Shown here: one piece after another, positions 53,058-61,778 of the stretch
Layout of the letters: each line of letters opens with the position of its first letter
Position numbering within the stretch: the first letter of the stretch is position 1
Assembly: GCF_900090275.1 (NCBI RefSeq)
Contig: NZ_LT607755.1
Location: forward strand, 2,604,001-2,668,000
Source: Micromonospora zamorensis
GTDB taxonomy: Bacteria; Actinomycetota; Actinomycetes; Mycobacteriales; Micromonosporaceae
Length of the DNA: 64,000 bases
Reading direction: 5' to 3'
Notes under the pieces: model-generated
The model's input: only the letters and a program-made list of their open reading frames with translations
Database searches by the model: none
Told to the model about the DNA's origin: nothing
Position numbers and translations under genes: made by a program

Positions 53058-53930
53058 ATGGGTGACATCCTCGTGGGCACCGCGTCCTGGACCGACCGCA
53101 CCTTGCTGGACTCGGGTTGGTACCCGCAGACGGCGGACACCCCGGAGAAGCGGCTGGCCTACTACGCGCGGCAGTTCCCGCTGGTCGAGGTGGACGCCAC
53201 CTACTACTCGCCGCCCGCCGAGGCGACCGCGAAGCTGTGGGCCGAGCGCACACCGGCCGGTTTCACCTTCAACATCAAGGCGTTCAGTCTGCTGACCGGG
53301 CATCCCACCCGGGTCAACGCCCTCTACAAGGACCTGCGTCCGGAGACCGACAAGAAGAACGTCTACCCCGACGACCTGCCCGCGCAGTCGTACGAGGAGG
53401 TCTGGACGCGCTTCCTGTCCGCCCTGGACCCGCTGGTCGAGGCGGGCAAGCTGGGTGCGCTGCTGTTCCAGTTCCCACCCTGGTTCACCATCAAGCGGGC
53501 CAACAAGCAGTACCTGCTGGAGGTGGCGAAGCGCTGCGCGCCGCTGCGCCCGGTCTACGAGTTCCGGCACGCCTCCTGGTTCGACGGCGACAACGCCGAC
53601 GAGACCCTGGCCTTCCTGCGCGAGCACAAACTGCCGTACGTCTGCGTGGACATGCCGCAGGGCCACCGCTCGTCGCTGCCCCCGATCCTGGCCGCCACCG
53701 CGGACCTCGCGGTGGTGCGCTTCCACGGCCACAGTGACAAGTGGACCAGCAAGGACATCCACGAGAAGTTCGGCTACCACTACTCCAAGCGGGAGCTGGC
53801 CGACTGGGCGCCGAAGTTGCGCGAGCTGGCCGACGAGGCCGGTCAGACGCACGTGTTGATGAACAACTGCTACCGCGACTACGCCCAGACCAACGCGAAG
53901 ACCCTCGCTGGCCTCCTCGACGCCAACTGA
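53058..53930 (+). CDS. DUF72 (YecE-like) protein
   Basis: A 290-aa TIM-barrel protein. The start GDILVGTASWTDRTLLDSGW and later FNIKAFSLLTGH, PPWFTIKRANKQYLLEVAKR and VYEFRHASWFDGDNADETLA are the DUF72 pattern. YecE-type proteins have unknown biochemical function, though the fold resembles sugar-binding or endonuclease-like TIM barrels. A second, more divergent DUF72 gene lies at 54694-55476 on the other strand. Confidence 0.85.
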   Translation: MGDILVGTASWTDRTLLDSGWYPQTADTPEKRLAYYARQFPLVEVDATYYSPPAEATAKLWAERTPAGFTFNIKAFSLLTGHPTRVNALYKDLRPETDKKNVYPDDLPAQSYEEVWTRFLSALDPLVEAGKLGALLFQFPPWFTIKRANKQYLLEVAKRCAPLRPVYEFRHASWFDGDNADETLAFLREHKLPYVCVDMPQGHRSSLPPILAATADLAVVRFHGHSDKWTSKDIHEKFGYHYSKRELADWAPKLRELADEAGQTHVLMNNCYRDYAQTNAKTLAGLLDAN

Positions 53931-54662: not shown

Positions 54663-54696
54663 TGAGCCCGCCCGAGGAACGCCTCGGGCGGGCTCA
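54663..54696. terminator. Bidirectional hairpin terminator
   Basis: TGAGCCCGCCCGAGG (54663-54677) and CCTCGGGCGGGCTCA (54682-54696) form a perfect 15-bp stem with loop AACG, between the DUF2267 gene and the convergent DUF72 gene, whose stop codon is included in the right arm. Confidence 0.85.
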
Positions 54697-55476
54697 GTCG
54701 CCGGAGGTGTCCGCCTCGGCCGGCGTCGGCACCCGCGACACCGGGTGCCCGGCCGCACGGGCCAGCGCGGCGAACGCGACAGCGTCCACGATGGCGGCGC
54801 CGCCCGGGTCGTTGTTGAAATAGACGTACGCCGGCTCGTCCTCGCCGAAGGCGTCGGTCAGCCGCCGCACCCATGAGGTGAGCGCCGCGCGGCCGTAGCG
54901 GGGCCACGGCCGTGCCCGCCCCTCGTGCAGGCGCAGGTACCCGAAGTCCGTGGTGCGCCAGCGCGGAGCGACCGGGCGCCCCAGCCGGTCGGCCCAGACC
55001 AGCGCGGCCCGACGCCGTTCCAGCACCGCCCGGGTGGCGTCGGTCCACCAGGAGGGGTGCCGGGGCTCGACGGCGACCCGCACCTCGGCCGGGAACAGCC
55101 GCAGGGTCGCGTCGAGCGCGTCGACGTCCGCCCGGAGGTTCGGCGGCAGTTGCAGCAGCACCGGGCCGAGACGGTCACCGAGCGCGGTGGCGCGACCGAG
55201 GAACCGGGCCACCGGCTCGTCCGGATCGCGCAGCCGCTTGATGTGGGTGAGGTAGCGGCTCATCTTCACCGTCACGCAGAAATCCGCCGGTGTGCGCGCC
55301 CGCCAGGCGGCGAAGGTCTCCCGCTCCGGCAGCCGGTAGAAGGCGTTGTTGACCTCGACCGTGGCGAACCCGGCCGCGAAGTGCTCCAGCCAGAGCCGCT
55401 GCGGCAGTTGTTGCGGGTAGAAGCGGCCCCGCCAGTCCCGGTACTGCCAGCCGGACGTGCCCACCAGGATCACCAC
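54694..55476 (-). CDS. DUF72 (YecE-like) protein, divergent copy
   Basis: A 260-aa DUF72 protein. It starts with ILVGTSGWQYRDWRGRFYPQ, then NNAFYRLPERETFAAWRART, VKMSRYLTHIKRLRDPD, LLQLPPNLRADVD, AVEPRHPSWWTDA and YVYFNNDPGGAAIVDAV. This is closer to the canonical YecE than the copy at 53058. Two GTG codons (55476 and 55473) follow AGGATGGGG and either can be the start. Function unknown. Confidence 0.83.
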   Translation of the reverse strand: MVILVGTSGWQYRDWRGRFYPQQLPQRLWLEHFAAGFATVEVNNAFYRLPERETFAAWRARTPADFCVTVKMSRYLTHIKRLRDPDEPVARFLGRATALGDRLGPVLLQLPPNLRADVDALDATLRLFPAEVRVAVEPRHPSWWTDATRAVLERRRAALVWADRLGRPVAPRWRTTDFGYLRLHEGRARPWPRYGRAALTSWVRRLTDAFGEDEPAYVYFNNDPGGAAIVDAVAFAALARAAGHPVSRVPTPAEADTSGD

Positions 55477-55630
55477 CCCATCCTGGCACTCTCCGCCGCC
55501 GCTCGCGAACTGCCCGTGTCGCCCCGGTTCGGCGTCTACGGTGAGGGTTAGAGAAGATCGCGCGTGGGGTACCACCCGCAGCACGACGGACCCCGGCGCA
55601 CGGCGGGGCGGCACACCCAAGGGAGTACCG

Positions 55631-55936
55631 ATGGCACTCAACGATGACGACATGCAGACCATGGGCGGCGGCGGCGCGGAGGGCCCGGCCGACGGTGGCG
55701 CGACCCCCGGTCAGCACGACGGTGGCGCCGACGGTGGCGCGGAGGGTCCCGCCGACGGTGGTGCCACCCCGGGTCAGCACGACGGTGGCGCCGATGGCAG
55801 CGCGGAGGGTCCCGCCGATGGCGGTGCCACCCCGGGTCAGCAGGACGGCGGCGCCGACGGTGGCGCGGAGGGTCCCGCCGATGGCGGTGCCACCCCGGGT
55901 CAGCAGGACGGCGGCGCTGACGGCAGCGCCCGGTAG
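55631..55936 (+). CDS. Repeat peptide: leader plus four 21-aa Asp/Gly-rich repeats
   Basis: A 101-aa protein. Residues 1-15 are MALNDDDMQTMGGGG, then four near-identical 21-residue units starting AEGPADGG and continuing ATPGQHDGGADG, ending in two residues AR. Units 1 and 2 have GQH, units 3 and 4 GQQ; the last residue alternates G, S, G, S. It is acidic, with no Lys and almost no hydrophobic residues, so it is likely unfolded. ATG follows AAGGGAG. The next gene, a JmjC/cupin-type oxygenase, begins 9 bases downstream. The layout of leader plus repeated core next to a modifying enzyme is that of a RiPP-like precursor or a hydroxylation substrate; this is inference. Confidence 0.8.
   Translation: MALNDDDMQTMGGGGAEGPADGGATPGQHDGGADGGAEGPADGGATPGQHDGGADGSAEGPADGGATPGQQDGGADGGAEGPADGGATPGQQDGGADGSAR
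55676..55930 (+). repeat. Four tandem 63-bp coding repeats
   Basis: The DNA under the repeat peptide is four in-frame 63-base units (starting GCGGAGGG), with few differences, mainly CAC versus CAG and GGC versus AGC. The high identity at synonymous positions points to recent duplication or ongoing gene conversion. Confidence 0.8.
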
Positions 55937-55945
55937 CGGCACATC

Positions 55946-57220
55946 ATGACGCACCTCGACCCGCCGGGCGGCCACGGCCGCCCGGCGGTTCCGTCCGCGA
56001 ACGCCGCCGAGGCACTGGCCCGTTGCGTCTCGGTCGAGCCGGCCAAGTTCGCCGCCGCGCACTGGGGACACACCCCGCTGCTCTCCCGCGCCGCCGAGCT
56101 GCCCAACGCGTCCGGCTTCGCCGACCTGCTCAGCCCCGCCGACGCCGACGAGCTGCTCAGCCGGCGCGGTCTGCGTACCCCCTTTCTGCGCGTCGCCAAG
56201 GACGGCCAGTTGGTGCCGGCGGCGCGCTGGACCGGCGGTGGTGGCGCGGGCGCCGAGATCGGCGACCAGGTGCTCGACGAGCGGGTCCTGGAGCAGTACG
56301 CCTCCGGCGCCACGCTCGTGTTGCAGGGTCTGCACCGGATCTGGCCACCGCTCGTCGACTTCGCCCGTGACCTGGGCCTCGCGCTCAACCAGCCGTTACA
56401 GATCAACGCCTACCTCACCCCGGCGGGCAGCCAGGGCTTCGCCACCCACTACGACACCCACGACGTGTTCGTCCTCCAGGTCGACGGCCGCAAACACTGG
56501 CGGATCCACCCGCCCGTGCTGCCCGACCCGCTGGAGAAGCAGCCGTGGGGTGGCCGCGCCGACGAGGTCGGTGCCACCGCGCAGGGTCAGGCCGCGCTGG
56601 ACGTGGTGCTCGCCCCCGGCGACGCCCTCTACCTGCCCCGGGGTTGGCTGCACAGCGCGCAGGCGCAGGACGCCAGCTCGCTGCACCTGACCGTGGGCAT
56701 CCGTGCGCTCACCCGCTACGCCCTGGTCGAGGAGCTGTTGGCGCTGGCCGCCGAGGACCAACGGCTGCGGGCCAGCCTGCCGTTCGGCACCGACGTCGCC
56801 GACCCGGACGCCATCGAACCGGAGCTGACCGAGACGGTCGAGGCACTGCGGGACTGGCTCCTGCGCGCCGACCCCGGTGCGGTCGCCGCGCGCCTGCGCC
56901 AACGCGCCTGGCCGGCCGCCCGCCCTGCACCCATCCGGCCGCTCGCCCAGGCCGACGCGGTGGCCGCGCTTGACGCCGACTCCCAGGTCACCCTGCGGCC
57001 GGGCCTGCGCTGGCAGTTGGTGCCGCACGGGTCGGACACGGTGGCGTTGCGGCTGTTCGACCGGACGATCACCCTGCCCGGTGACTGCGAGGCGGCGGCT
57101 CGTGTCCTGCTCAGCGGCGCAGTGACCCGGGTTGGTGACCTGCCCGGGTTGCCCGACGACGCCGACCGGGTCACCCTGACCCGTCGACTGCTGCGCGAGG
57201 CCGTCCTGGTCCCGGCCTGA
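55946..57220 (+). CDS. JmjC/cupin-type 2-oxoglutarate-iron oxygenase
   Basis: A 424-aa protein of the cupin_4/JmjC group that contains the ribosomal oxygenases RoxA (YcfD) and human MINA53/NO66. The iron triad is visible: His168 and Asp170 in GFATHYDTHDVF, and His236 in LPRGWLHSAQ; GRKHWRIHPP supplies the usual Lys for 2-oxoglutarate. After the barrel (about 60-260) comes a helical dimerisation part and a C-terminal winged-helix-like domain (about 330-420), as in RoxA. Known members hydroxylate His or Arg side chains in proteins. Here the gene starts 9 bases after the repeat peptide gene, which is a likely substrate; a ribosomal protein is the alternative. Confidence 0.87.
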   Translation: MTHLDPPGGHGRPAVPSANAAEALARCVSVEPAKFAAAHWGHTPLLSRAAELPNASGFADLLSPADADELLSRRGLRTPFLRVAKDGQLVPAARWTGGGGAGAEIGDQVLDERVLEQYASGATLVLQGLHRIWPPLVDFARDLGLALNQPLQINAYLTPAGSQGFATHYDTHDVFVLQVDGRKHWRIHPPVLPDPLEKQPWGGRADEVGATAQGQAALDVVLAPGDALYLPRGWLHSAQAQDASSLHLTVGIRALTRYALVEELLALAAEDQRLRASLPFGTDVADPDAIEPELTETVEALRDWLLRADPGAVAARLRQRAWPAARPAPIRPLAQADAVAALDADSQVTLRPGLRWQLVPHGSDTVALRLFDRTITLPGDCEAAARVLLSGAVTRVGDLPGLPDDADRVTLTRRLLREAVLVPA

Positions 57221-57302: not shown

Positions 57303-57965
57303 TCAGCGGCCGAGCACCAGCAGCAGCACCGTGGTGACCACCCCGACGCCGAGGACCACGGTGATCGGCCGGGGACCGAGCATCGCGTGCCGGCGGTCGG
57401 CCAGCACCCGCGCCGGCACCAGGCCGATCAACGGCCCGAACAGGGTCACCACCAGCGCCAGCACCGGCATCCCGACCGCGAGATCGCCGCCGTACCCGAC
57501 GCCCAACGCCCGCGCCCCAACCCCCAGGGCGTACGCCAGGACGGCGCCGGCCACCCCGCACAGCGCCAGCAGCGGGTTGACCGAACCCGGCAGCTCACCC
57601 GGCTGCCCGGCGCGGTCGAGCAGGTCACGGGCCTTGCCGAGCAGCAGCACCGGGTCGGTGGCCGTGGTGCCGTTCGCGGGTGCGGGCGGGCCACCGAGGC
57701 GACGGGCGCCGAGGCGCGAGCGGACCTGCTGCCACAGGTGAGCTACCTCCGCATCGACGCGTTCCTGCTGCTCGCGGGCGGCGACCAGCTCCTCCTCGGC
57801 GTACTGGAGCTGCTCGGCGGCGTCGGCGACAGCCTGCTCGGCAGCGGCGCACTGCCGCTCGTACCAGGTGTGCGCCTCAGCGCGCTGCTCACCCACTCGT
57901 GCGGTCAGGTCGGCCAGCCGTCGGAGCTGGGCCGTGTACGTCTCGCTGGCCACCGGTTCGTTCAT
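57303..57965 (-). CDS. Coiled-coil membrane protein (fourth gene of the FtsK-like operon)
   Basis: A 220-aa protein. Residues about 8-85 are a long coiled coil (RLADLTARVGEQRAEAHTWY, then EQAVADAAEQLQYAEEEL). Three transmembrane helices follow at about 131-152, 162-185 and 201-219. The N-terminus would be cytoplasmic. No family recognised. Its ATG overlaps the stop codon of the FtsK-like ATPase by four bases. It may be the membrane platform that docks the ATPase. Confidence 0.75.
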   Translation of the reverse strand: MNEPVASETYTAQLRRLADLTARVGEQRAEAHTWYERQCAAAEQAVADAAEQLQYAEEELVAAREQQERVDAEVAHLWQQVRSRLGARRLGGPPAPANGTTATDPVLLLGKARDLLDRAGQPGELPGSVNPLLALCGVAGAVLAYALGVGARALGVGYGGDLAVGMPVLALVVTLFGPLIGLVPARVLADRRHAMLGPRPITVVLGVGVVTTVLLLVLGR

Positions 57966-60637
57966 CGCGACGGACCATAAGGGATGATCACCTGTCCGGT
58001 GCGGTGCACCGCCCGGTCGAAGAAGAGGCCCCGCCAGGGGCGGGGATACCAGTCCGGGCCGCCGGTGCCCGGGTAGAGCGAGGAACCCAGCTCGCCGCCG
58101 TGGGTGTCCAGCGCCACCCAGGCGCCGATCTGGTCGGTACGCGCGGCGGGCCCGCCGAGGTCGGCACGCATCCGTGCCACTCCCCGCCACCAGGCCAGCA
58201 CGTGCGTCCGTCGTTCCGGCCCGTCGTGCAGGATCCGCCGCAGCTGCTCCAGCCCGGTGCGTCGGCCGGCTCGGGCGGCCAGCGCGCCGGCCGCCGCGTC
58301 GACGGCGAACAGCAGCAGGTAGTGCGGGCTCCCCGGGCCGGTCAGCCCGTCGGCCGTCTCGGCCATCAGCTCACCGACTGTCTCCTCGTCGTACCAGGCG
58401 GCGTCGTCGGCCAGGTCGTCGTAGAGCGCACGGGCGATCGGGTCAGCGTCGGCGTCGAGGCAGGCGATGGAGAACCGGGCGGTGCCCGGCGGGTGCTGGC
58501 GGGCCAGTGAGCGGGCTGCCGCGTCCAGCACCGCGCAGGCCTCGTCCACCCGGGTGCCGAGCACGGCGAGGTTGCGCCCGGGGGCGCGCGGCAGTCGCAG
58601 CGCCGCCGAGCGGGACTGCACGTCGATGATCTCCCCGAGTAGGGCAACCGGGCTGCGCGGCACGCTCCCGTCCGCGGGCGCGGCGAGCGTACGGAAGTCC
58701 GGGGCGTCCGCCAGTCGGGGAATCGCGTCGCCGTCGAAGAGCCGGGCCGGTGCCGCGTCGGCCGGGCGCATCCGCCACAGCCGGTGCTGCAAACCGCTCC
58801 ACGTCTCCCAGTCACTGGCCGACGGGATCCGGGCGACCTCGTTGCCCTCCACCATGCCCGACTCGGCGTTGACCACCGCGTGCCAGCGAGGCAGCGACTG
58901 TGCCGCGTCGTTGCGTTCGGCGAGGATCCGCAGCGCCTTGGGCAACGCGATGCGCAGGGTGAACTGGGCGACCAGCGCGGGGCGGCCCCACAGGGCCTCG
59001 ATGCCCCGCACGTCCTGTGAGGCGAGCACCAGGTGGATGCCCTGGGACCGGCCGCGTCGGGCCAGGTCCTCCAGCAGGTCGGCCGACTCCCGGGCGACCA
59101 CGTCCCGACCGGCCAGCAGCATCTGGAACTCGTCGACCACCGCGACGATCCGTGGCCAGTGCCCGGTCGGGTCGACGGCCCGCAGCTCGGCCAGCTTGGT
59201 CACCTCGTGCTTCTTGGCCGCGTCGGCGCGGCGACGCAGCTCCTCGGCGAGGAAACGCAGCAGCGCCAGGCCGAACTCCCGGTCGGTGTTGACGTTGATC
59301 CCGACCAGGCGCATGTGCGGCAGCCAGCTCGGGTCGCGCCGGCCCTGCGCGAACCGCGCGAAGGACACGCCCTCCTTGAAGTCCAGCAGGTAGAACTCCA
59401 GCTCGGCGGGGGAGTAGCGGGCGGCAAGGGCGCCGATCCACGCGAAGATCAGGTTGGTCTTGCCGGTGCCGGACGGTCCGCCGATCAGCGCGTGCGGTGG
59501 ATAGTCGCCCAGCGTCAGCCGCACCGGCCGGCCCTGCGGCCCCTCGCCGATCGGCGCGGTCAGCCCGTCGGATGAGTCCTCCCGCCACATCAGCTCCGGC
59601 GGGGGCAGCAGGTCCGCGAACGGGGTCGGCGGTGGGCCGGCGTTCACCCGGGCGGCGATCTCCCGGCACGTCTCGGTGACCAGCGTCGCCGGTGGCGGTG
59701 GATCGAGACGGACGGGCAGCCCGGCCGACCCGCCGATGCGTGCGCCGGACACCCCGGCCACCACCCGGGTCACCGTCGGGTCCTCCGGCAGCGGCACACC
59801 GTGGACCACCAGGTGCACCCCGCAGGCCGCGCCGGCGCGTACCACCCGGTCCAGTTGCCCGCGCTCGTGCCGGTTGAGCTCATCACCGCCGAGCAGCACC
59901 GCCACCCGCCATGGCTCGGGTCGTCGGCCGGTCGCCGCGGCCAGCTCGCGCAACGACGCGTACTCGCCGGCGAGCACCGTCTCGTTGATCCGGCGGATCT
60001 GCTCCACCAGGTCGTCGAGCAGTGGGCCCAGACCGCCGGGGCCGACGAAGGTGAGCAGCCCCGCCGTGCCCAGCGGCGCGAACCCGGCCAGGCCACCGCC
60101 GAGCTGCTCCGGGTCGTACCCGACCAGGCGTACCGCGCCCGGGTCGGCGCGGCCGGCGGCCCGCAGCAGCAACGCGGACACCACGGCGTCGCAGCCGGCG
60201 CGATCGTCCCCGGACAGGTGTACGTGCCCGGCGTCGAGCAGCGGCACCAGCGCGGGCACCGGGTCGACGCCGTCGATCCGGACCGTGCCGACCCGTAGCG
60301 CGCCGGGTGGCTCCGCACGGCGGGCGGGCGTCGGGGCCCACCCCGCCCAGTCGGCCCCCGCGCAGCCCGGCGCCTCCTGCCGGGCCGCGTCGGCGGCGCG
60401 CCGGGCCAGTTCGGCGATCCGGGTCGAGTAGCGGGCGTCGATCTCGGCGACGCGGCGGTCCCGCTGGGCGCCCACCCGTGCCGGTACGGCCGCAGCCGCC
60501 CGCTCGACCCGGGCCAGCCGTTCGCGCCCGGCGGTCAGCTCGGCCTGGGCTGCGGACAGGCGGGTACGGGTCGCGCCCAACGCCTCGGCGAGGGTGTCGC
60601 GGACCCGGCTGGCCAACTGGCCGCGCCGGTCAGCCAT
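57962..60637 (-). CDS. FtsK/SpoIIIE-type ATPase
   Basis: An 891-aa soluble protein. Residues 1-85 are a coiled coil. Residues about 115-340 resemble a degenerate P-loop domain (LVGYDPEQLGGGLAGF). The motor domain has Walker A GGPSGTGKTN at 386-395, FYLLDFKEGVSFARFAQGRR, Walker B IVAVVDEFQMLLAGR (Asp502, Glu503) and ARRGRSQGIHLVLASQDVRG. Residues about 630-890 form a third, degenerate ATPase-like domain. The three-domain order recalls EccC of type VII secretion, but there is no N-terminal membrane anchor. It overlaps its upstream and downstream genes by eight and four bases, so the operon is tightly coupled. Substrate, protein or DNA, is unknown. Confidence 0.85.
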   Translation of the reverse strand: MADRRGQLASRVRDTLAEALGATRTRLSAAQAELTAGRERLARVERAAAAVPARVGAQRDRRVAEIDARYSTRIAELARRAADAARQEAPGCAGADWAGWAPTPARRAEPPGALRVGTVRIDGVDPVPALVPLLDAGHVHLSGDDRAGCDAVVSALLLRAAGRADPGAVRLVGYDPEQLGGGLAGFAPLGTAGLLTFVGPGGLGPLLDDLVEQIRRINETVLAGEYASLRELAAATGRRPEPWRVAVLLGGDELNRHERGQLDRVVRAGAACGVHLVVHGVPLPEDPTVTRVVAGVSGARIGGSAGLPVRLDPPPPATLVTETCREIAARVNAGPPPTPFADLLPPPELMWREDSSDGLTAPIGEGPQGRPVRLTLGDYPPHALIGGPSGTGKTNLIFAWIGALAARYSPAELEFYLLDFKEGVSFARFAQGRRDPSWLPHMRLVGINVNTDREFGLALLRFLAEELRRRADAAKKHEVTKLAELRAVDPTGHWPRIVAVVDEFQMLLAGRDVVARESADLLEDLARRGRSQGIHLVLASQDVRGIEALWGRPALVAQFTLRIALPKALRILAERNDAAQSLPRWHAVVNAESGMVEGNEVARIPSASDWETWSGLQHRLWRMRPADAAPARLFDGDAIPRLADAPDFRTLAAPADGSVPRSPVALLGEIIDVQSRSAALRLPRAPGRNLAVLGTRVDEACAVLDAAARSLARQHPPGTARFSIACLDADADPIARALYDDLADDAAWYDEETVGELMAETADGLTGPGSPHYLLLFAVDAAAGALAARAGRRTGLEQLRRILHDGPERRTHVLAWWRGVARMRADLGGPAARTDQIGAWVALDTHGGELGSSLYPGTGGPDWYPRPWRGLFFDRAVHRTGQVIIPYGPSR

Positions 60638-61778
60638 CGGAGCTCCGTCGAGCCGGCGCGTCCCGCCACGGGCTACCCGAGCGCGGCGGCACACCACCGG
60701 AGCGGGGCGGCCCACCATCCGTGCGCGGCGGCAGGCCACCGGGGTGCGGCGGCAGGCCACCGGAGCGCTGCGCGCCCGGCCGCTGAACAGCACCGCCGAC
60801 GTGCGCGCCCGCGCCCGCCGACTGTCCGGCCCCGCCCGACTGCCCCGCGCCGGCCGGCCGCCCGGCCCGCGCCGGCTGCCCCGCACCGCCTCGTTGCTCC
60901 GCGCCGTTCGCTTGTCCCGCGCCCACCGGCTCTTTCACGCCGCCTGCGGGGAGGTCCCGGCCGAGTCGGGCGAGCAGCAGCCCGGTCGCCACCCCGGCGG
61001 TGACCGCGGAGTCGGCCGCGTGCGGCGGCTCCCCGGAGGCGCGCGGTGGCGGCATCCGGCACACCCGGGTCAGCAGTGTCTCCAGCACCGGCGGCGGCAG
61101 CCCGGGCAGCAGGTCGCGTACCCGCCCGTCCAGCTCACCGCGCAGCCGCCCGAGGTCGGTGGCGCGGGGCGGGTGCCCCAGCAGCTCACCGGCCAGCTCG
61201 CGCAGCAGGGGCGGCGCCAGCGCCGCCATGCCCAGCCCCACGTCGGCCGGAGCCCGGCGCAGCTCCTTGCGGAGCCGGTCCCGGTCGCCGGAGCGGACAC
61301 CACCCACCACTCGGCGCAGCAACTCCTGGGAGTCGTCCACCCGCTCGTCGGGTTCGTCGTCGGTGCCCTCGCGCCCGCCGGTCAGCTCGGCCACCCGCAC
61401 CGACCACCAGCGGCTCATTCGCACCTGCTCCGCCGGCTCCGGCGCGACCGCTGTGGGCCCGGTGGCCGGCGGCGTGTCGTGTCGGGGAGCGCGTTGTTCT
61501 GGGCGGGGCGCCGGGGTGCCGTCCGCGCCCAGCCCGATCGCGGTCAGGTACGCCGAGAGCTGCTCCTGTGCCACCCGCAACGCGTAGCCGGCGCTCTCGG
61601 CGTGCTCGGTCGCGGCGGACAGCTCCGGCACCCCCATCGGGTTGGCCGACTCCTGGCGTACCCAGCGCAGTCTCTCCGCGGCCAGGCCGAACTTCTCCAG
61701 CGCCTGCCCGAGCAGGGCCACCGGGAACTCCTCGCTGGCGGCACGGACCTGCCCACCGACGTCCTCGATGATGGACAT
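60630..61778 (-). CDS. 382-aa adaptor-like protein with low-complexity tail
   Basis: Residues 1-80 are helical (VGGQVRAASEEFPVALLGQA, then TEHAESAGYALRVAQEQLSA), in size and style like ESX/WXG-type helical hairpins. Residues about 115-290 are a second, mostly helical domain (SQELLRRVVGGVRSGDRDRL, RELAGELLGHPP). The last 90 residues are Gly/Ala/Pro/Arg-rich (GGAGQPARAGRPAGAGQ) and likely unfolded. No family recognised. Gap to the 86-aa gene is 6 bases and the 3' end overlaps the ATPase gene by eight bases. It may bring a substrate to the ATPase. Confidence 0.75.
   Translation of the reverse strand: MSIIEDVGGQVRAASEEFPVALLGQALEKFGLAAERLRWVRQESANPMGVPELSAATEHAESAGYALRVAQEQLSAYLTAIGLGADGTPAPRPEQRAPRHDTPPATGPTAVAPEPAEQVRMSRWWSVRVAELTGGREGTDDEPDERVDDSQELLRRVVGGVRSGDRDRLRKELRRAPADVGLGMAALAPPLLRELAGELLGHPPRATDLGRLRGELDGRVRDLLPGLPPPVLETLLTRVCRMPPPRASGEPPHAADSAVTAGVATGLLLARLGRDLPAGGVKEPVGAGQANGAEQRGGAGQPARAGRPAGAGQSGGAGQSAGAGAHVGGAVQRPGAQRSGGLPPHPGGLPPRTDGGPPRSGGVPPRSGSPWRDAPARRSSDG

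Follow-up and report, generated by a model that had tools for sequence, protein, structure and literature searches.

Peptide and oxygenase genes at the locus

The window, a stretch of 64,000 nucleotides from the Micromonospora zamorensis genome, encodes a repetitive peptide followed immediately by a JmjC/cupin_4 oxygenase (Table 1). The ORF coordinates and TRF (period 63, 4.1 copies, 90% matches) bear out the arrangement originally predicted here: a 101-residue product with four nearly identical repeats, and an oxygenase gene that begins 9 bp after the stop codon of the peptide gene. The peptide consists of a leader-like head, which is 16 residues long (MALNDDDMQTMGGGGA) rather than 15 as first proposed; four 21-residue repeats with the consensus EGPADGGATPGQ[HQ]DGGADG[GS]A, which contain no lysine, tyrosine, tryptophan or cysteine; and a terminal arginine. 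A GGAG-type motif, like the ribosome-binding site in the window, is also found 5' of orthologous peptides.

Table 1. Features of the peptide-oxygenase locus and its surroundings, in window coordinates
Feature	Position	Strand	Remarks
Two DUF72 (PF01904) genes with a DUF2267 gene between them, immediately before the pair	53058-53930; 54694-55662	+; -	
Promoter-like element GGTTAGAGAAGATCGCGCGTGGGGTAC, GGTTA-N16-GGGTAC	55546..55572	+	sigma-B/sigma-F type, approximately -85 of peptide start
Ribosome-binding site GGGAG, 5' of peptide	55621..55625	+	sequence
Peptide ORF	55631-55933, stop 55934-55936 (TAG)	+	101 aa
Leader-like head MALNDDDMQTMGGGGA	55631..55678	+	LxDDD[IM]xT-type motif in most orthologs
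Repeat 1 EGPADGGATPGQHDGGADGGA	55679..55741	+	sequence, TRF
Repeat 2 EGPADGGATPGQHDGGADGSA	55742..55804	+	sequence, TRF
Repeat 3 EGPADGGATPGQQDGGADGGA	55805..55867	+	sequence, TRF
Repeat 4 EGPADGGATPGQQDGGADGSA	55868..55930	+	sequence, TRF
JmjC/cupin_4 (PF08007) 2-oxoglutarate-type oxygenase	55946..57220	+	424 aa; Pfam 101.8 bits
JmjC_2 domain, residues 151-256	56396..56713	+	Pfam
Iron ligands His168 and Asp170 (H-Y-D)	56447..56455	+	invariant in 28 orthologs; aligned with HYD of NO66
Iron ligand His236	56651..56653	+	invariant in 28 orthologs
C-terminal winged-helix domain, residues 328-424, weakly RRE-like	56927..57217	+	AF2 mean pLDDT 94 (modelled alone); Foldseek
Large ORF	57962-60886	-	974 aa; 21-bp tandem repeat at 60675-60772 in 5' part

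Pairwise codon comparisons of the four repeat copies reveal 40 synonymous and 8 non-synonymous differences, and eleven comparisons of the peptide with equal-length orthologs, two of which have identical values and apparently represent one strain, give dN of 0.011-0.075 and dS of 0.196-0.739 (dN/dS approximately 0.04-0.23). The peptide is under strong purifying selection; the mostly synonymous differences between repeats and the low dN/dS therefore identify it as a selected protein. A frame artefact or low-complexity DNA was considered as the source of the ORF and is ruled out by this codon-level selection.

The predicted iron ligands of the oxygenase (His168, Asp170 and His236) are intact and, together with Lys183, are invariant across 28 aligned orthologs. 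Among solved relatives, a sequence profile ranks NO66 best (E 7e-36), followed by MINA53, a cupin 4 protein (4csw, YcfD-like, from Rhodothermus), YxbC and YcfD, and the ranking by fold is much the same; the JmjC fold, the HxD...H triad and the 2-oxoglutarate lysine, hallmarks of ribosomal oxygenases, are all present. A search of the source genome (7.1 Mb, single contig) with the oxygenase finds only the query itself, and the closest named relatives, judged from the best 80 kept of at least 570 in the collection of named-species genomes, belong to Micromonospora.

The second, divergent DUF72 ORF overlaps the start of the peptide gene, and the true start of this DUF72 gene is therefore probably further inside. 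The large ORF downstream of the pair presumably encodes a nucleotide-binding translocase resembling FtsK. The DUF72 genes and this ORF were rejected as members of a cassette; they are conserved inside Micromonosporaceae and look like plain synteny.

The promoter-like element resembles stress promoters of the actinobacterial sigma-B/sigma-F consensus, which we take to be GTTT-N14-17-GGGTAC. Upstream stretches, extracted for 135 of 170 distinct loci, were searched for the pattern GTTT-N14-17-GGG[TA]A[CT], with one mismatch allowed. Such an element, approximately 85 bp ahead of the peptide gene, is present in 59 of 80 unique Micromonosporaceae loci (mean in shuffles, 1.35) and is weaker elsewhere (12 of 55 unique loci, nine of them from family f8, versus 1.1 in shuffles), all counts being inflated by shared descent, since shuffling does not remove relatedness.

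Linkage of the peptide and the oxygenase

The oxygenase was used to search 41 relatives, 296 genomes of the class, 296 genomes of the phylum and the named-species genomes. Some match occurs in 99 of the 296 class-sample genomes and a strong match (E <= 1e-60) in 49. A profile of the peptide (A3) matches 35 genomes of this sample, all within the 49, compared with approximately 6 expected by chance; in all 35 the peptide gene is directly beside the oxygenase gene, on the same contig and strand and 5' of it, with a gap of -44 to 114 bases. De-duplication of 216 loci left 170 distinct enzymes: 165 close relatives (86 from Micromonosporaceae and 79 others) whose score against the A1 profile is 220 bits or more, a cut-off chosen after the scores were known, and 5 weaker homologs. 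An automatic filter that requires a small, Asp-rich ORF immediately 5' of the enzyme is passed by 157 of the 165 close relatives and by 5 of 639 control windows elsewhere in the same loci. Where it fails, the peptide is present nonetheless (L083 and L206), the repeats are cut by a contig end (L014, L080 and L136) or lie in a broken frame (L103 and L135), or, at the one remaining locus (L198), the enzyme starts at the contig edge.

The pair is widespread in actinobacteria, Asp-rich peptides preceding relatives of the enzyme in other classes of the phylum also, and its anticipated co-occurrence in other genomes proves to be two-way. An oxygenase that is common without the peptide, the outcome named beforehand as adverse, was not seen among close relatives; from the approximately 50 class-sample genomes with only matches weaker than 1e-60, eight were fetched, of which three reached 220 bits and were counted among the 165, and five make up the weak set. 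Two of these five weak homologs pass the filter. At L158 and L187 the passing peptides are Asp-rich with no clear repeats.

Some more distant homologs have distinctive neighbours. On plasmid pF1D18A of Streptomyces clavuligerus, a distant cupin_4 homolog (L217, 4832-6227; 252 bits; fetched later and outside the counts) stands behind a 48-residue peptide (MDDKKTSLEPDEIEVIPPVSTPDFVIADNDPSDPPIAIADPDPFDPVI); next come a gene for an S9 peptidase, oppositely oriented, and one for an ABC transporter. The locus is possibly an exported Asp-rich relative of the system; the listed features include no ferredoxin gene beside the homolog. Just 5' of a weak homolog (L175) is a short peptide (MDPIEVEVEDLAEVTSRDITAGGDSDGTDSSSDFI) with a leader-like head and an Asp/Ser/Gly tail. 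At L172, the gene preceding the weak homolog is presumably TfuA-like, a partner of YcaO RiPP enzymes, and some other cupin_4 proteins may therefore sit in thioamide-type RiPP clusters.

Conserved head and variable cores of the peptide

The head reads MALNDDDMQT in the window, MALDDDDITT, MSINDDDITT and similar in relatives, and contains LTDEDIRT, VEDEDIVT or LRDEDITT in other classes. Conservation of the first residues, which the original prediction had proposed to check, holds for most orthologs and fails in some families: a strict regular expression for the head matches 106 of 157 peptides, and among the other 51 some were trimmed by automatic start choice and others truly lack the motif, as do groups of families f31 and f37, among others. 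The core is EGPADGGATPGQHDGGADGGA in Micromonospora, EGPADGGSNPEGHDGGADGTA in family f8, DPAGSDPAGADPAAS at L030, DADTTDGG at L160, of the types DGTDGDGTDG and DGDASDAS at L188 and L202, and essentially (ADGG)n at L056; the DGTDGDATDG type also occurs among divergent repeats. The head motif is thus mostly kept while the core type changes, the pattern of a leader with a variable core.

The Gln-His/Gln-Asp-Gly stretch, put forward earlier as an example of the modified site, is not conserved: His is missing from 41 of 157 cores, Gln from 65, both from 14, and His, Gln and Pro together from six, which makes the Gln-His site unlikely. Asp, Gly and Ala are present in all 159 peptides scored, for Asp partly by construction because the filter asked for it; most core Asp residues have Ala before and Gly after them, and no Asp-poor partner peptide was found among close relatives. 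Since the repeats diverge as far as (ADGG)n or DGTDGDATDG, the side chain that they share is that of Asp, which on this comparison appears to be the best candidate for the modified residue.

Two unusual peptides were also encountered. A divergent precursor (L194) has repeats of the form DGTDQGVxGGTYGPRDA, most of which contain Tyr and Arg, and has no ferredoxin gene beside it. In protein P0024, a one-repeat peptide runs into the start of the oxygenase, followed by an apparent frameshift, which could reflect either a natural fusion or an assembly error.

C-terminal domain of the oxygenase

Foldseek comparison of the C-terminal winged-helix domain of the oxygenase gives 9 matches with E <= 0.001, every one a ribosomal oxygenase. 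The next matches are RiPP enzymes (ThcOx, E 0.028; the heterocyclases 4v1t and TruD, 0.034; McbBCD, 0.13; TigE, 0.14), and presumably run through their leader-binding domains. The modelled domain may therefore be said to resemble, weakly (E >= 0.028, below the ribosomal oxygenases), a RiPP recognition element (RRE). When peptide and enzyme were modelled by AF2 as a read-through chain, the peptide part had a pLDDT below 50, so that the model says nothing on binding and contact between head and enzyme is deduced rather than seen; the placement of the peptide on the enzyme in this model was dropped.

Because of the two-way co-occurrence, the adjacency, the mostly conserved head and a C-terminal domain like those that bind leaders, the peptide is very probably a dedicated partner of the oxygenase. 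To this extent the idea of a dedicated substrate, with which the analysis began, is sustained; the Gln/His site attached to it is not.

A ferredoxin gene in the cassette outside Micromonosporaceae

Outside Micromonosporaceae, the gene directly downstream of the oxygenase gene on the same strand normally encodes a Suc_Fer-like protein (PF06999 in 5 of 5 tested), detected with a profile built from eight such sequences at 68 of 78 testable loci (56 of 65 strong and 12 of 13 mid-score) and absent from the other ten. The 68 distinct sequences conserve Cys-x-x-Gly-x-His-Asp-x-Cys-Cys...His-x-Gly-Gly-Asp-Arg-Phe-Ala and one Cys near each end. The same profile finds no Suc_Fer-like gene downstream at any of 80 testable Micromonosporaceae loci or beside any of the 5 weak homologs, and the genome of the window has no PF06999 match, next to the pair or elsewhere. 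The window thus contains a two-gene form of what is normally a three-gene cassette elsewhere, and the description of the locus as a stand-alone JmjC pair has to be amended accordingly. Suc_Fer proteins also exist without the cassette (167 of 296 genomes, versus 49 of 296 for the enzyme).

In 37 loci examined with a crude gene caller based on codon composition, which missed the enzyme itself in 3 of the 37, neither a protease nor an exporter was seen to recur, though a protease may be encoded elsewhere in the genome. Enzyme and Suc_Fer gene aside, a single gene cluster reaches a count of 4 loci or more; it occurs in 4 of the 37 and presumably encodes an acyl-CoA dehydrogenase.

Proposed modification of the peptide

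Drawing on the gene arrangement, the purifying selection, the two-way co-occurrence, the third gene and the weakly matched RRE-like fold, we consider it on balance probable that this is a RiPP-like cassette whose oxygenase would bind the head of the peptide and oxidise the Asp residues of the repeats, most likely by beta-hydroxylation. The 101-residue peptide would be a precursor composed of a conserved acidic head (LxDDD[IM]xT) and four substrate repeats; the RRE-like winged helix at the C-terminus of the oxygenase would grip the head; the JmjC site would hold Fe(II) on His168, Asp170 and His236 and 2-oxoglutarate on Lys183; and oxidation, most likely beta-hydroxylation, would proceed in succession over the Asp residues that recur in the DGG/ADGG tetrads, at up to 12 sites, since each repeat has three conserved Asp. 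Outside Micromonosporaceae, the neighbouring Suc_Fer-like ferredoxin would probably give electrons to the iron of the oxygenase or to iron that the product has bound; within Micromonosporaceae the ferredoxin may have been lost or another donor may be used. We infer the Asp target and the beta-hydroxyaspartate product from the conserved residues and the chemistry of the enzyme family, whose solved members are side-chain hydroxylases that act at C-beta. As in RiPP pathways, where the precursor is encoded beside its modifying enzyme, the peptide gene adjoins and co-occurs with the gene of the enzyme that would modify its product. The absence of a recurrent protease or exporter is unusual for a secreted RiPP and counts against this RiPP-like reading; because of it, the product may stay in the cell. 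The cassette, whose enzyme is a relative of ribosomal oxygenases, would be classed as RiPP-like, short of a proven RiPP.

It is also conceivable, with a smaller though appreciable chance, that the peptide is the dedicated substrate of another chemistry or at another residue: C-alpha hydroxylation of Gly with backbone cleavage, hydroxylation of Pro or of His/Gln, oxidative decarboxylation, or cross-linking of Asp. Every core contains Gly and Ala, just as it contains Asp, which would allow C-alpha chemistry on Gly, but His, Gln and Pro are dispensable, the repeats in the window lack the Lys, Tyr, Trp and Cys of the usual cross-links, and the nearest solved relatives hydroxylate side chains. That the peptide is instead a non-substrate partner of the oxygenase or ferredoxin, such as an iron-donating or regulatory disordered acidic chain, seems improbable: its very low model confidence is that of disordered chains, poly-Asp chains bind metals, and no protease or exporter recurs, but, as in leader-bearing substrates, its head is mostly conserved whereas the repeats differ in number and sequence, and the enzyme carries an RRE-like domain and retains its catalytic residues. 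An ordinary RoxA/NO66-type ribosomal oxygenase acting on a ribosomal protein beside an incidental peptide gene is highly improbable given the patchy presence of the enzyme (strong match in 49 of 296 genomes), its strict two-way linkage to the peptide and the Asp-rich peptides that precede its relatives in other classes of the phylum, even though the closest solved proteins by both sequence and fold are NO66, MINA53 and YcfD-type enzymes.

Extending the RiPP-like reading to function is speculative. Strings of hydroxyaspartate would be good ligands for iron or calcium, as in siderophores and EGF domains, and the products might be undescribed actinobacterial poly-(beta-hydroxyaspartyl) peptides: multidentate chelators of iron (or calcium) made by a JmjC enzyme, served in redox by the Suc_Fer [2Fe-2S] protein, expressed from the sigma-B/sigma-F-type stress promoter and acting as an intracellular metal buffer. 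Taken as a whole we think this scenario unlikely, and we offer iron chelation and stress induction as hypotheses; a ferredoxin beside a hydroxyaspartate peptide would fit the handling of iron redox.

The analysis provides a candidate dedicated substrate for a large set of JmjC oxygenases from many actinobacteria of several classes, and a genetic context for the little-studied bacterial Suc_Fer ferredoxins. If the proposed modification is correct, the cassette would represent a RiPP type whose sole modifying enzyme is a relative of ribosomal oxygenases, would hint at how ribosomal oxygenases and RiPP leader recognition relate, and would yield peptides with many hydroxyaspartates, a metal-binding residue; to our knowledge, hydroxyaspartate is hardly known from ribosomal products.

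Comparison with known systems

Searches of open-licence PMC papers for the peptide-oxygenase pair and for its parts found no description of the pair, and the name BatC protein, borne by two homologs, also led to nothing. The third gene of relatives shares PF06999 and the conserved Cys/His set with the Apd1/Suc_Fer thioredoxin-like ferredoxins, whose cluster is presumably of the [2Fe-2S] type, and these have no counterpart in the genome of the window. RiPP precursors with multiple cores in tandem have one leader followed by several near-identical cores; the peptide shares the leader and the near-identical repeats, whereas no cleavage sites are evident between its repeats and its core type is not one known from such precursors. 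RRE-dependent RiPP systems are represented by LynD/TruD, ThcOx and McbB, which contain an RRE and whose structures match the C-terminal domain of the oxygenase next after the ribosomal oxygenases (E 0.028-0.14); their catalytic domain is different, and the present cassette has no recurrent protease or transporter. One report describes PF08007 fused to RRE-like folds in fish and algae and places the closest bacterial homologs in RiPP-like contexts (PMC12710340).

Two further reports describe the JmjC/cupin hydroxylases BipG and PbsQ, which act on ornithine of RiPP precursors (PMC12707348, PMC12257519). BipG/BpmG and PbsQ of the biphenomycin-type RiPPs are, likewise, JmjC/cupin hydroxylases of a RiPP pathway. 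There, hydroxylation of ornithine is one step in an MNIO/B12-rSAM pathway of many enzymes, which also includes genes for peptidase and MFS transporter proteins, whereas the oxygenase described here has no other modifying enzyme beside it in the cassette and its precursor is built of Asp-Gly-Ala repeats. The ribosomal oxygenases (NO66, MINA53 and YcfD/RoxA) have in common with the enzyme the JmjC/cupin_4 fold, the HxD...H triad, the 2-oxoglutarate lysine (aligned with that of NO66) and the C-terminal winged helix. NO66 has another sequence where the enzyme family has the invariant His172-Asp173. The related ribosomal oxygenases hydroxylate His or Arg. Unlike them, the enzyme of the window is patchily distributed and genetically tied to a repeat peptide.
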